Below, piece after piece: positions 9,304-14,708 of a stretch of 41,701 nucleotides of DNA. The notes below the pieces were generated by a model, which saw only the letters and a list, made by a program, of their open reading frames with translations, did no database searches and was not told the origin of the DNA. Each line of letters opens with the position of its first letter. Position 1 is the first letter of the stretch. Made by a program: the position numbers and the translations under genes. Source of the stretch: Prochlorococcus sp. AG-402-M18 (lineage in GTDB: Bacteria; Cyanobacteriota; Cyanobacteriia; PCC-6307; Cyanobiaceae); NCBI GenBank assembly GCA_003216595.1, contig QCIQ01000013.1, forward strand, positions 1 through 41,701, read 5' to 3'.

Positions 9304-9387
9304 GAATCAAATACTGATTTCAATATCAGTCTGACAGTCATTTTCTAGATTAGTGCCATAGAGTTGTTATATGTGAAAGTGAAAACT

Positions 9388-9813
9388 GTGAGCGAAGACA
9401 CTAAAACAAAAACAAATCCTTTTGGAAATTCGGCTTCTGATGAAAAACAAAATCAAGTTATTTCATTGGAAACAAACAACTCAACCGAGGAATTTGATCC
9501 AAAAGGCAATCGCTTCGAGTGTATGAGTTGTGGTTTTATTTATGATCCTGATGAGGGTATCAAAAAGCTAAATATTGAACCAGGAACGGCATTCTTAGAC
9601 ATAGATAGAGAGAAGTTTAGATGTCCAGTCTGTCGAGTAGGATTTGGTGGATATAAGGATATTGGACCTAAATCAAAGCCCAGTGGATTTGAAGAAAACC
9701 TTACTTATGGCTTTGGATTTAATAAACTTCCTTCAGGCCAGAAAAATGTTCTTATTTTTGGAAGCCTTGCTTTAGCTGCTGCCTGTTTTCTCTCTCTTTA
9801 TTCTTTGAAATGA
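9388..9813 (+). CDS. rubA: Membrane-anchored rubredoxin for photosystem assembly
   Basis: Thylakoid-bound rubredoxin required for photosystem assembly. From the GTG at 9388 (start MSEDTKTK) the protein has a disordered N-terminus, a rubredoxin fold with iron ligands C45-x2-C48 (CMSCGF) and C79-x2-C82 (CPVCRVGF), and a C-terminal hydrophobic helix (about residues 118-136) anchoring it in the membrane. The frame stays open to a TTG at 9364; 9388 is preferred because homologues begin close to this residue. Its stop overlaps the ycf48 start as ATGA. The order rubA-ycf48-psbE... is the conserved cyanobacterial PSII assembly operon. Confidence 0.93.
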
Positions 9814-10826
9814 AACGCCTGTTTTCAAACGTCATTAATTTGACTCTTGTCTTAATAGTTGGAGTAGCTCTTAGTGGTTGTACTGTTAGTAATGCTTCCA
9901 TTGGCTCCTCAAGCCCTTGGTCACTAATCGACCTTAATACTGAGGCAAATCCATTAGATGTTGACTTCGTCGATGATAAAAATGGGTTTTTAGTTGGCAC
10001 GAATAGATTGATACTTGAGACAAATGATGGAGGAATAATCTGGAAAGAAAGAAATTTAGATATGCCAATCGAAGGTAACTTTCGTTTGATAAGCGTTGAT
10101 TTTAAAGGCCAAGAAGGTTGGATTGCAGGTCAACCTGGATTGATTCTTCACACAAGTGATGGAGGAAAAAATTGGACTCGTCTTGATTTGGGAAATAAAT
10201 TGCCTGGAGATCCATATTTGATAACTACTCTTGATACTGATTCTGCTGAGCTGGCAACTACTGCTGGAGCAATTTATAAAACAACTGATGCTGGTACAAA
10301 TTGGGAAGCAATAGTTGTTGATACTTCAGGCTCTGGAGGCATAAGAGAATTAAGACGCACAAATAATGGTGGCTATCTAAGTGTTAGTAGCCTTGGTAAT
10401 TTCTTCTCAGTTCTAAGACCAGGAGAGGAGACATGGAGCCCTCATCAAAGAGCAAGTAGCAAAAGAGTACAAAGTGTTGGCGAACAGCCAAATGGCGATT
10501 TATGGATGCTTTCTAGAGGAGCTGAAATCAGATTTAATGCAGATTCTAATGATGTCGACTCCTGGTCAAAGCCAATAATCCCAATCGTCAATGGATATAA
10601 CTATCAAGATCTTGCTTGGGATCAATCTAAGTCGATTTGGGCAGCGGGAGGAAATGGAACATTATTAGTAAGCAATGATGATGGAAAAACTTGGGAAAAA
10701 GACCCCGTTGGTGAATCTGTTCCAACAAACTTCATCAGAATTCTATTTGTGGACGATTCTAATACTGACAGTCCTAAGGGATTTGTATTTGGAGAAAGGG
10801 GGAATTTATTGCGATGGCAGGGTTGA
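9810..10826 (+). CDS. ycf48: Photosystem II assembly factor Ycf48/HCF136
   Basis: Lumenal beta-propeller that binds newly made D1 and helps build the D1-D2-cytochrome b559 intermediate. The N-terminus is a lipoprotein signal peptide with lipobox LSGC, so Cys24 would be lipidated. The mature part contains repeated blades with the pattern hydrophobic-W/F-x-T-x-D-G-G-x-x-W ([52 protein letters not shown]). At 338 residues its length is typical. It overlaps rubA by 4 bases and precedes psbE by about 107 bases, matching its role in assembling the complex that contains PsbE. Confidence 0.96.
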
Positions 10827-10933: not shown

Positions 10934-11182
10934 ATGGCTGCCGGCTCTACCGGGGAACGCCCGTTTTTTGAGATCATTACTAGTGTCCGCTATTGGATCA
11001 TCCATGCGGTTGCACTTCCTGCGATCTTCGTGGCAGGATTCCTATTTGTGTCTTCTGGGCTTGCCTACGACGCTTTTGGAACTCCTAGACCAGATACGTA
11101 TTTTCAGGCTGGAGAAAGCAAAGCTCCTGTTGTTGTTCAGCGCTTTGATTCCAAGGCTGAACTTGACACGCGTCTGAAATAA
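10934..11182 (+). CDS. psbE: Cytochrome b559 subunit alpha
   Basis: Alpha chain of the PSII cytochrome b559. The 82-residue sequence begins [15 protein letters not shown] and contains the haem-ligating His24 in [13 protein letters not shown] at the start of its single transmembrane helix; the lumenal tail includes the conserved [10 protein letters not shown] and QRF segments. The haem normally sits between this His and the equivalent His of PsbF, yet the next gene 29 bases downstream is psbL, not psbF. The overlapping frame-shifted ORF on the same strand is a shadow. Confidence 0.98.
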
Positions 11183-11211
11183 CCAAATTTCATCTGATTG
11201 CTTTTTTATCC

Positions 11212-11331
11212 ATGCAAGTCAATCCAAATCCAAATAAAGTTCCGGTTGAATTAAACCGAACAAGTCTTTATCTTGGACTCTTACTTGTTTTTGTAATGGG
11301 AATTCTTTTTTCCAGTTACTTCTTTAACTAA
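11212..11331 (+). CDS. psbL: Photosystem II protein L
   Basis: Single-helix PSII subunit at the monomer interface near the QA site. The 39-residue product has the PsbL core [20 protein letters not shown] and the terminal SSYFFN that are nearly invariant in the family. It lies 29 bases after psbE and 11 bases before psbJ, in the same orientation. Confidence 0.97.
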
Positions 11332-11342
11332 ATCTCTTTATC

Positions 11343-11540
11343 ATGAGCAAATTAAAAGGACCTGATGGACGAGCAGGAGATCGTCTGCCAAATGGTATGC
11401 CTGCAGTCTCCTGGCAAAGACGGTGGACAGAGGGAGCACTTCCTCTATGGTTAGTGGCTACTGCAGGTGGAACAGCTGTTATTTTTGTTCTTGGTATTTT
11501 CTTTTACGGTTCATACACTGGTATTGGTAACGCTGGTTAG
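11343..11540 (+). CDS. psbJ: Photosystem II protein J
   Basis: Single-helix PSII subunit that affects forward electron transfer from QA and PSII assembly. The 65-residue product has the family segments GRLP-like [23 protein letters not shown] and a transmembrane helix ending [13 protein letters not shown]. The C-terminal [10 protein letters not shown]-like tail is characteristic. It is the last gene of the operon, followed by a strong terminator hairpin. Confidence 0.96.
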
Positions 11541-11615: not shown

Positions 11616-12545
11616 AAGCCAATATTTATTTGTAAATAATTTGATCTTGCCTTTAGTTTTATTTGGTACATGCTCTTTTGAAGTAACTAGCGCATTTTTT
11701 AATGCATTATGAAAAGCACTTGAAGGCCTTAATGATGAAATTCTTTTAGCGGCAGCGGAGATTATTGATTTCGCAAAATTTGCATTTTCCTGAAGATTCT
11801 CAATGACCATCTCGACAGATACATTTTCGCAATTTTGATTCCAGCAATCATAATCAGTAACCATTGATAGGCTTGAATAAGCGATTTCGGCTTCTTTTGC
11901 TAATCGGGCTTCCGTATGGTTTGTCATGCCTATGATTGAACATCCCCAATCTCTGTATAAGTTTGATTCTGCTTTTGTAGAAAATGCTGGCCCTTCCATA
12001 GCAAGATATATTCCTCCAATGTGCATTTTTTTATCTTTGGTTATAAGTTTTTCTATTTCTTGTGACAGTATTTGAGAAAGAACTTCGCAAAAAGGATTTG
12101 CCATGCTTATGTGAGCTACAACTCCATTGTTGAAAAAAGTCAATGGCCTTTGACTAGTTCGATCAATAAATTGATCAGGGATAACAATGTCGCAAGGTTT
12201 GATATTTTCTTTTAATGAACCTACTGCTGATGCCGATATTAACCATCTAACATTTAGAAAGCGCATAGCCCAGATATTTGCTTTATATGGAATTTCGCTT
12301 GGATTTAAAGTATGGTTCTCTCCATGGCGAGCTAGAAAAACAATCTCTATTCCAAATAGATTGCCTATTAGTAACTTATTAGAAGGTTTTCCATAGGGAG
12401 TGTCTAAGCTTAGTTCGACTATGTTTTTAAGATTTTCTATTCTATATAGTCCGCTTCCTCCAATAATTCCTAATCTGGCTTTTTTTAAATCATAGGCATC
12501 TGATTGTGTTCCAGAAATATTCAAAAAATCATGTTCAGTGATCAT
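11613..12545 (-). CDS. mtnP: S-methyl-5'-thioadenosine phosphorylase
   Basis: Phosphorolysis of methylthioadenosine, the by-product of polyamine and homoserine-lactone synthesis, to adenine and methylthioribose-1-phosphate. Landmarks in order: LGIIGGSGLY near the N-terminus (phosphate loop), LARHGENHTLNPSEIPYKAN, SASAVGSL, MEGPAFSTKAES, GMTNHTEARLAKEAEI and VTDYDCW. The start is uncertain: the frame allows ATG at 12575, 12569 or 12545, but homologues begin just before LGIIGG, and all ATG choices overlap the divergent selD start at 12531. The ATG at 12545 is the shortest ATG choice and is used here; a later TTG is possible. Length (310 residues) is normal. Confidence 0.9.
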   Translation of the reverse strand: MITEHDFLNISGTQSDAYDLKKARLGIIGGSGLYRIENLKNIVELSLDTPYGKPSNKLLIGNLFGIEIVFLARHGENHTLNPSEIPYKANIWAMRFLNVRWLISASAVGSLKENIKPCDIVIPDQFIDRTSQRPLTFFNNGVVAHISMANPFCEVLSQILSQEIEKLITKDKKMHIGGIYLAMEGPAFSTKAESNLYRDWGCSIIGMTNHTEARLAKEAEIAYSSLSMVTDYDCWNQNCENVSVEMVIENLQENANFAKSIISAAAKRISSLRPSSAFHNALKNALVTSKEHVPNKTKGKIKLFTNKYWL

Positions 12546-14708
12546 CTCGTTCTTGCTGGTGGTGGTCATACTCATGCCCTTGTGTTGCTTCGATGGGCAA
12601 TGAATCCAAAATTGAAGCCTGCTGGAATGATTACTTTAGTCAATAAATCAAGTACTACTATTTATTCTGGGATGTTTCCAGGTGTCGTAGCAGGTAAATA
12701 CAAGATTGATGAAATACTAATTGATTTGAGAAACCTTGCTTCAAAAGCAGGTGTTTCATTTGTGATGGCAGAAATTGAGGGAATTGATCTTAAGAAAAAA
12801 AAATTACTGCTCGCAGGACGCCCAGAAATTCAATATTCTTTGCTGTCCCTAAATATAGGAACAAAAACTAACTTAAATTCTAAATCTTTAATCGAAGGGG
12901 ATAAAGATTTAGCTATTCCAATTAAACCTTTTTCTGAATCTTATAAATTTATTGTCGATCAAGATATCCACAAGGATAATTCTTTTGCGAAACCATTTGT
13001 AATTATTGGTGGCGGGTTCGCTGGGATAGAAATAGCTTTTTCTTTAAGAAAAAGATGGCCAAGAAGATCTATTATATTAAAAGTCAAATCTCGAAAAAAA
13101 CTTAGTAAAAATATATTAAAAAAATTAAACGATTTACAGATTAAGATCCTACACATAGATTCATCTGCTTTATATCCAACATTAATATGTACTGGTAATA
13201 AGTCATTTGATTGGATAAAAAATAGTGGTTTTCCTATAGATAAAAATGGGAGGATATTAACAAAAAAAACTCTTCAAGTACTTAATTATCCAGAGTTATT
13301 TGCTGTAGGAGATTGTGGAGTTATTAAAGATCATCCCCGTCCTTCTTCTGGTGTATGGGCTGTTCGATCAGCAAAACCACTGGCAAGAAACTTAGAAAGA
13401 ATAAGTAAAGGTTTAAAACTTAAGGAATGGAAACCACAAAGTAAGGCAATACAACTTTTAGATATCAATTATATAAACAAGCAATCCAAAGCTTATATGT
13501 CTTGGAGTGGAGTAATGATTGGCCCTTTTCATTTTCTTTCAAGATTAAAAGAATCAATTGATAAAAAGTTTATCTCTAGATTTGATCTAATTAAAAATAT
13601 AGATTCAGATATGTCTTCTGAAGAAGAGATCATTAAATGTAGAGGATGTGCAGCAAAGGTAGCTTTTACTCCATTAAGTTTAGCATTGAAAAAATTAGAT
13701 TTAATAGAATCTTCAATGGATGATTCTATTGCTATAGGAATACTGAATTCTAGTAAGACTTTGATACAAAGTGTCGATGGATTTCCATCTTTAGTTAGTG
13801 ATCCATGGCTAAATGGGAGGCTTTTAGCTTTTCATTCTTGTTCTGATATTTGGGCGTGCGGAGGATCTGTGATCTCTGCACAATCTGTTGTGAATTTACC
13901 ATCATTGTCTAATGATTTACAGCAAGAATTGTTATTTCAAGTCTTGGAAGGTATTAATTCTGCTTTAGTTATTCAAGGTGCAAAACTTATTGGTGGTCAT
14001 ACATTAGAATCAATTAAAAGATCTGAAGAACCATTCTCACTTTCAATTGAAGGCTCATTAACTGTAAATGGAATTATTGATGATAAAAAAGATTTTTGGT
14101 CTAAGCGAGGAATGAAAAAAGGAGATCAAATTCTAATTAGTCGTTCTTTAGGAACTGGAATTATTTTTTCTGCTTTTATGAATGGTCAAGTAAAACCTTA
14201 TATACTTGATTCTGTTTTAAAAGAAATGAATAAAAGTCAGCATAATGTTGTGAATTATATTAATCAATTAACTAATACAAATCCATACTCAAAAGTTATA
14301 AATGCATGTACTGATATAACTGGCTTCGGTTTGCTAGGCCATTTATCTGAAATGTTGGATTATACAAATAGCGATCGATTGAAGATAAGTTTAGACCCTC
14401 TGAAAATCATTCTTGAGCTAGATAATATACCAGTTTATGATGGTGTTATAGAACTTTTAAATAAAGGCTTTGAGAGTACTTTAGCTCCTTCAAATGAAAT
14501 TTTTTTAAAACATATTGATGGAGATAGAAATTTAAGATTTGAGCTAATATCTAATAATTTTATTTATAATGACTCGTTTTATAATACTATGTTGAAAGTT
14601 TTAATTGACCCACAAACTTGTGGCCCGTTGATCGTTAGTTGTTCACCCATTTATTCAGAAAACCTTATAGCACAAGGACCGTGGATTAAAATAGGATTTA
14701 TTTCTTAA
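12531..14708 (+). CDS. selD: Fusion of an NDH-2-like flavoprotein and selenide, water dikinase
   Basis: The C-terminal half makes selenophosphate from selenide and ATP; the N-terminal half is an FAD/NAD(P)-dependent pyridine nucleotide-disulfide oxidoreductase of the type-2 NADH dehydrogenase class. From the ATG at 12531 the N-terminal part has VLAGGGHTHALVLLRW (first nucleotide-binding fold), FVIIGGGFAGIEIAFSLRK (second) and LFAVGDCGVI (FAD). The SelD part starts with CRGCAAKV (Cys370 and Cys373, the catalytic Cys/Sec region and the following conserved Lys), then DSIAIG, SVDGFPSLVSDPW, HSCSDIWACGG, GGHTLES and CTDITGFGLLGHLSEM. The fusion is known from cyanobacteria. An upstream TTG-type extension to 12504 is open but overlaps mtnP more. 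The stop shares four bases with the converging CCA-enzyme stop. Confidence 0.93.
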   Translation: MFSDHLVLAGGGHTHALVLLRWAMNPKLKPAGMITLVNKSSTTIYSGMFPGVVAGKYKIDEILIDLRNLASKAGVSFVMAEIEGIDLKKKKLLLAGRPEIQYSLLSLNIGTKTNLNSKSLIEGDKDLAIPIKPFSESYKFIVDQDIHKDNSFAKPFVIIGGGFAGIEIAFSLRKRWPRRSIILKVKSRKKLSKNILKKLNDLQIKILHIDSSALYPTLICTGNKSFDWIKNSGFPIDKNGRILTKKTLQVLNYPELFAVGDCGVIKDHPRPSSGVWAVRSAKPLARNLERISKGLKLKEWKPQSKAIQLLDINYINKQSKAYMSWSGVMIGPFHFLSRLKESIDKKFISRFDLIKNIDSDMSSEEEIIKCRGCAAKVAFTPLSLALKKLDLIESSMDDSIAIGILNSSKTLIQSVDGFPSLVSDPWLNGRLLAFHSCSDIWACGGSVISAQSVVNLPSLSNDLQQELLFQVLEGINSALVIQGAKLIGGHTLESIKRSEEPFSLSIEGSLTVNGIIDDKKDFWSKRGMKKGDQILISRSLGTGIIFSAFMNGQVKPYILDSVLKEMNKSQHNVVNYINQLTNTNPYSKVINACTDITGFGLLGHLSEMLDYTNSDRLKISLDPLKIILELDNIPVYDGVIELLNKGFESTLAPSNEIFLKHIDGDRNLRFELISNNFIYNDSFYNTMLKVLIDPQTCGPLIVSCSPIYSENLIAQGPWIKIGFIS

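Follow-up and report, generated by a model that had tools for sequence, protein, structure and literature searches.

A psbE–psbL junction without psbF in a Prochlorococcus genus and a PsbY–PsbF long form with Asn at the heme-ligand site as its candidate replacement

The psbE–psbL junction of the window

The window, that is, the whole stretch of 41,701 nucleotides analyzed here, belongs to a draft genome of Prochlorococcus sp. AG-402-M18 (G000; 57 contigs totaling 1.62 Mb, with a completeness of about 90%). Around the junction of interest, the following features were assigned.

9364..9813, + strand: rubredoxin gene upstream, presumably rubA, start codon uncertain (ORF 149 aa; Pfam Rubredoxin 49.3 bits)
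9810..10826, + strand: ycf48, PSII assembly factor upstream (ORF 338 aa; Pfam PSII_BNR (YCF48) 437 bits)
10934..11182, + strand: psbE, cytochrome b559 alpha subunit (ORF 82 aa; PF00283 and PF00284 over cut-off; alignment)
11183..11211, + strand: psbE–psbL spacer of 29 bp at the usual psbF site (sequence and translation)
11212..11331, + strand: psbL (ORF 39 aa; Pfam PsbL 82 bits)
11343..11540, + strand: psbJ (ORF 65 aa; Pfam PsbJ 57.5 bits)

An earlier note on this DNA had claimed that psbF is missing between psbE and psbL, and the coordinates bear this out: instead of the canonical psbEFLJ order with psbF in second place, only 29 bp were found there. No coding content was detected in 11183–11211, where the in-frame translation from 11180 reads (stop)PNFI(stop)LLFYP. 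The alignment of the 82-aa PsbE likewise agreed with the note's statement that the heme ligand His24 is retained, and Arg19 and Tyr20 are kept as well. The genome-wide search with PsbF that it had proposed returned psbE alone, which was the single match of the PF00283 profile at E≤10 and the only match of a canonical PsbF query (E 0.11).

The junction across the genus and beyond

For comparison with sister strains, as the earlier note had also suggested, the 41 genomes of the genus, which we take to be LLI Prochlorococcus, were searched. A strong psbE match was obtained in 34 of them, only the long form described below in 5, and neither in 2; the 7 genomes without a psbE match include G017 (97% complete) and G022 (96% complete). 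All 30 genus loci that were fetched and measured, among them those of the single-contig genomes G002 (presumably NATL2A) and G003, showed a psbE–psbL gap of 27–30 bp without psbF (29 bp in 26, 27 bp in three, and 30 bp in one). In a second set of 80 loci, which shares several genomes with the first, 19 were of the genus type, and all had the psbF-less junction. PsbE His24 was kept in 30/30 genus loci read and the adjoining Arg/Tyr in those aligned, while a second match of psbE strength was found in no genus genome.

Outside the genus, psbF was present in 19 of 21 loci of the first set and 59 of 61 of the second, two sets that overlap in some genomes, and the measured psbE–psbL gaps were 139–188 bp long. 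The exceptions were MIT1223 (G049, LLVIII), AG-409-J19 (G053; both sets), and AG-435-K18. The last has a 33-bp gap, and the long form was not found in its incomplete 1.1-Mb assembly. In AG-409-J19 (L117/L066, 84% complete), psbE and psbL lie 2 bp apart, and neither PsbF nor the long form nor a PsbY over the cut-off was found; it is possibly a further case of psbF loss.

Hence, the gap without psbF is confirmed to be real and not an artefact. That psbF was removed from the window by an assembly error or by editing, a suspicion raised by the origin of the window in a 57-contig draft, is refuted for practical purposes by the same junction in independent genomes, both single-contig and single-cell ones. 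The idea that the gene is simply absent from this assembly fails as well, since the canonical psbF is gone from the genus, six single-contig genomes without psbF included.

A long form of PsbF with Asn at the heme-ligand site

When G002–G007 and G049 were searched with canonical PsbF at E≤10, only PsbE and one further protein, the long form, were obtained. Its gene is distant from the psbE operon in LLI and encodes about 97 aa, with a PsbY-like transmembrane helix in the N-terminal third, a linker of roughly 25–45 residues, and a C-terminal PsbF helix. The PsbF part is 79–82% identical to PsbF over 34 residues. However, compared with the canonical motif RWLAVHALAIP, the LLI fusion carries Thr for Trp and Asn for the heme-ligand His, besides its extra N-terminal helix and its position outside psbEFLJ. 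LLI fusion proteins read over their full length are free of His from the likely start Met onwards. At the heme-ligand site, Asn was read in all long forms (96 loci and L249) and His in all short forms (90); these locus counts are redundant, and no exception was met. The long form therefore lacks the axial His that marks PsbF in every copy read. L037 holds a normal LLI fusion (FTIRTLAVN), and L249 (FTLRTLAVN) also has Asn. In G054, a fusion with RWLAIN was observed, and psbE was not found.

The long-form gene itself is not new, as its family is already named in NCBIfam. The LLI protein reached 173.4 bits against NF002717, 'cytochrome b559 subunit beta, long form' (cut-off 153), and the HL protein reached 207.6 bits against NF002720 (cut-off 127). 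The fusion is thus a member of known families, but their name is silent on the missing His, on the status as sole PsbF of a genus, and on the PsbY-like N-part. The LLI-type long form of a relative also exceeded the cut-offs of the PsbF families TIGR01333 (64 bits, cut-off 61.15) and PF00283 (36.8 bits, cut-off 30), whereas the HL long form stayed under that of TIGR01333 (54.4).

A simple relocation of psbF, another option of the earlier note, was rejected: the distant gene is a longer paralogue, PsbY-like plus PsbF with His replaced by Asn, which sister lineages carry in addition to a normal psbF. It is also very unlikely that a canonical psbF survives elsewhere, too diverged or too short for detection. 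PsbF has only about 45 aa, and first-look filters can miss genes this small; however, the same query gave E-values of 1.1e-27 for the canonical PsbF of G317 and of about 1e-12 for the diverged long form, and in six single-contig genus genomes it returned at E≤10 nothing beyond PsbE and the long form. In addition, PF00283 at E≤0.1 gave two matches each in G002 and G004. Carriage by phages was considered separately and rejected, the phage collection holding neither a near DNA match to the operon nor a protein match to the long form.

Distribution and gene neighborhood of the long form

The long form was found in 31 of the 41 genus genomes, in one of them truncated by a contig end, and 46 of 400 family genomes passed the NF002717 cut-off. 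Copies from HL (our assignment for group g28) and from g37 (marine Synechococcus type) scored about 106–130 bits and are plainly the same gene. Within a phylum sample, the 18 genomes with a long form (of 386) all came from this family. The long form stands beside a canonical psbF in G317 and G314, which we take to be of SS120 and MIT9211 type, in many HL genomes, and in some g37 genomes. It is the sole PsbF in the single-contig genomes G002–G007 and MIT1223; lineages with single-contig genomes that have lost psbF all carry it. All seven g37 loci read (L239–L245) hold a long form with Asn.

In the window's own genome, the long-form locus was not found. Its comparison with an 11-kb long-form region gave only two matches, paralogue-like with 65–71% identity. 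The ten genus genomes that yielded no long form are G000, its sister G008, and eight drafts of 51–76% completeness. In G008, a contig ends at the flavodoxin side of the locus, and in G014, another ends inside the fusion. As these sister drafts break at contig ends there, the long form is probably missing from G000 through an assembly gap. A loss in the sub-clade of the window would suit its absence from both G000 and G008 but is less likely, given these contig ends and the lack of nearly the whole 11-kb region in G000.

With regards to the neighborhood, the fusion is found two genes away from a flavodoxin gene in 5/5 LLI/LLVIII loci checked, and one flavodoxin copy scored 84 bits with Pfam Flavodoxin_1; a motif scan of 11 other loci detected none. 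In gene order, this conserved cluster (L031:9756-12213, L033, L035, L051, and L262) comprises a membrane protein with NPFG at its end, then the fusion, then a divergent WHTYMFP membrane protein, and finally the flavodoxin. One copy each of the two membrane proteins was compared with Pfam and NCBIfam, and no family was matched.

The PsbY-like part

Stand-alone PsbY over the Pfam cut-off was found in 20 of 34 genomes tested, but in none of G000–G007 or G049. Since no genus genome tested has such a PsbY, the fusion is, as judged from sequence, the one candidate that the genus has for PsbF as well as for PsbY. The link between PsbY absence and fusion presence is not strict, given that G056, with a canonical psbF and no long form, likewise yielded no PsbY.

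Although the N-part can be aligned with PsbY, the LLI copies of the fusion gave no match to Pfam PsbY (PF06298) at E≤1, and the fusion of G054 reached 17.5 bits against a cut-off of 24. In a profile comparison with hhalign, the N-parts matched PsbY with a probability of 98.6, the PsbY set including intermediate proteins. Such intermediates come from G042, G044, and G050, three of the Gln-type genomes treated below, whose stand-alone PsbY shares a motif with the N-part; in G042 and G050, this fusion-type PsbY exceeded the PF06298 cut-off (24.4 and 25.0 bits for the two proteins). The link of the LLI fusion to PsbY thus runs through its relatives.

Among PDB entries, the fusion was matched best by chain F of 7YMI, deposited as PsbY, from the PSII–Pcb complex of Acaryochloris marina (PMC12661325, PMC12138183). 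In this chain, too, a single PSII protein combines PsbF with a PsbY-like stretch, but PsbF comes first, its His is kept, and the stretch resembles the N-part of our fusion only weakly (9.4 and 10.9 bits). The two fusions probably arose independently. In known structures, PsbY adjoins PsbE/PsbF (PMC4823308).

The order of the parts bears on topology. PsbF runs from stroma to lumen. In a chain built as PsbF, short linker, PsbY, the PsbY would consequently start in the lumen, which would make a stromal linker from PsbY to PsbF natural in Prochlorococcus.

Selection and history

The mean dN/dS of 20 LLI fusions was 0.064 over the whole gene, 0.114 over the PsbY part, and 0.087 over the linker, falling to 0.017 over the 36 codons of the PsbF part (186/190 pairs) and 0.006 over its 32-codon core (185/190 pairs). 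The LLI psbE gave 0.028, long forms of other lineages 0.011–0.013, and canonical psbF 0.009–0.041; all these values are rough, with a mean dS of 0.8–1.6 in several sets and saturated pairs dropped. The pairs kept were 185/190 (LLI), 41/66 (LLII/III), 15/15 (HL), and 21/21 (g37) for long forms and 71/78 (HL) and 62/66 (LLII/III) for canonical psbF. LLVIII with its two members gave no value, and L255 and L249 lay outside the set. The PsbF part of the fusion is thus under strong purifying selection.

A tree of Ycf48, PsbL, PsbJ, and MtnP placed LLI, MIT1223, and AG-435-K18 together (99/99); it was midpoint-rooted, with 12 of 37 inner branches open, three rows left out, and two rows without Ycf48. 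Because of this grouping, a single psbF deletion may account for all three.

Parallel change in PsbE

In a second group, the other subunit is altered. In G041, G042, G044 (MIT1307, LLVII), and G050, PsbE has Gln for His24, Lys or Asp for Arg19, the heme-propionate partner, and Phe for Tyr20, and the PsbF His is kept in an altered RFFAVH context. The Gln PsbE loci are:

G044: L069:2457-2702
G041: L071
G042: L072
G050: L067

The Gln-PsbE pattern was found in 14 of 400 family genomes, spread over 10 of 59 genera, and in 3 of the 251 more complete genomes. The reversed control pattern occurred in none of the matches listed. In three drafts from the genus of MIT1307 (G043, G445, and G446), the Gln-PsbE pattern had no match. 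Ten pattern-matched loci were read (L199–L208), and each combined a Gln PsbE with a His PsbF. In terms of sequence, then, one of the paired heme histidines is missing from each of two Prochlorococcus groups, which reached this state by different routes.

Proposed explanation and alternatives

Of the explanations offered in the earlier note, an unusual assembly of cytochrome b559 was the one that fitted best, as far as sequences can tell. What they contain is a deletion, no other PsbF, no stand-alone PsbY over the cut-off, the Asn, and purifying selection. We consider it probable that the psbF deleted from the operon was replaced by the PsbY–PsbF(Asn) long form in LLI and MIT1223, and that their b559 has a single His or is heme-free.

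According to this proposal, the role of the deleted psbF would have been taken over by its paralogue at the second locus. PsbE would pair with the PsbF half of the fusion in PSII, the PsbY half would fill the adjoining PsbY site, and the ratio of PsbY to PsbF would be fixed at 1:1. The halves would be joined by a stromal linker if PsbF runs from stroma to lumen and PsbY in the opposite direction. With Asn facing PsbE His24, the cytochrome would have at most this one axial His, and its heme would therefore be five-coordinate or absent. PsbE and PsbF may then serve PSII assembly mainly as a scaffold. A possible benefit would be lower iron use, although the flavodoxin gene close to the fusion is no more than a hint of such an economy. 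However, the LLI PsbE is strongly conserved and keeps His24, Arg19, and Tyr20, which suggests that the heme pocket still matters in LLI and counts against a heme-free state.

Precedents for such a cytochrome are divided. Most Synechocystis mutants of the heme-ligand His show no photoautotrophic growth, whereas PsbE H23A and H23M of T. elongatus make apo-cytochrome b559 and the cells grow (PMC9214863). The Thermosynechococcus case resembles ours in that one axial His is missing and PSII is still made, but those are laboratory mutants, while the change here is natural and affects PsbF in LLI/LLVIII and PsbE (Gln) in the MIT1307 group. The high-potential form of b559 in Arabidopsis depends on PsbY (same source), which makes the fusion of PsbY to a His-less PsbF notable.

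Two alternatives retain some weight. In other lineages, the Asn long form occurs together with canonical psbF and is equally conserved, so it may have a role of its own and would not have to occupy the PsbF site. It could thus be a regulator or an assembly or repair factor, with LLI PSII using PsbE alone or an unrelated helix in the beta site. We regard this as unlikely, as the single-contig psbF-less lineages all have the long form and PSII in the mutants studied needs both the alpha and the beta subunit (PMC9214863). Slightly less likely still, two PsbE His24 residues might share the heme in a bis-His homodimer, and the long form would merely fill a membrane site. The conservation of His24 throughout the genus loci read and of its Arg/Tyr neighbors in those aligned, as well as the constraint on psbE, would suit such a homodimer. 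On the other side, the very strong constraint on the PsbF helix of the fusion suggests a place for it in the beta site, no second match of psbE strength occurs in the genus, and the single b559 site of PSII is made up of two unlike helices.

Taking deletion with replacement by the long form together with the Gln-type PsbE, a wider claim can be formulated: cultured Prochlorococcus would run PSII with a natural heme-free or single-His b559 that arose at least twice, by psbF loss with fusion and by the Gln in PsbE, so that the bis-His heme would be dispensable and possibly traded for iron. We see this as an even bet.

Since natural lineages lacking one His exist with cultures, the purpose of the b559 heme is directly testable on both the beta and the alpha side. 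Such lineages would also reveal which helix contacts are still needed in the absence of bis-His ligation, and how a streamlined genome can fuse the subunits of a nearly invariant machine and move their genes elsewhere. Cultures are available for MIT1223 (axenic), MIT1307 (xenic), and NATL2A (PMC11559063); in the main text of that article, psbE, psbF, and b559 have zero occurrences. The open-access literature, in the portions available to us, yielded no report of psbF loss in LLI, of a sole Asn long form, or of the PsbE Gln. A 'PsbF-like protein' is named in MIT9312 (PMT9312_RS06075; PMC6517427), and the proteins measured in SS120 include canonical PsbE and PsbF (PMC5451487).

Additional observations

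In L255, a locus of the HL genome G172, the long form runs out of frame near its end, being either a decayed copy or a sequencing error. A long form was also found in G175, an HL genome that consists of two contigs and has a listed completeness of 100%; PF00283 found neither psbE nor psbF there, which may reflect an assembly gap at a contig end. An ORF of about 61 aa lies directly beside the long form in all four HL loci listed (L059–L062, e.g., L060:4704-4892); its likeness is confined to the PsbY-like N-part of the long form, and the one copy tested scored 30 bits against NF002717. Further downstream in the window, at 12504-14708 on the + strand, lies an ORF of 734 aa in which Pfam placed a Pyr_redox_2 domain at the N-terminal end and AIRS/AIRS_C domains at the C-terminal end, a domain order that we take to resemble selenophosphate-synthase-like fusions.
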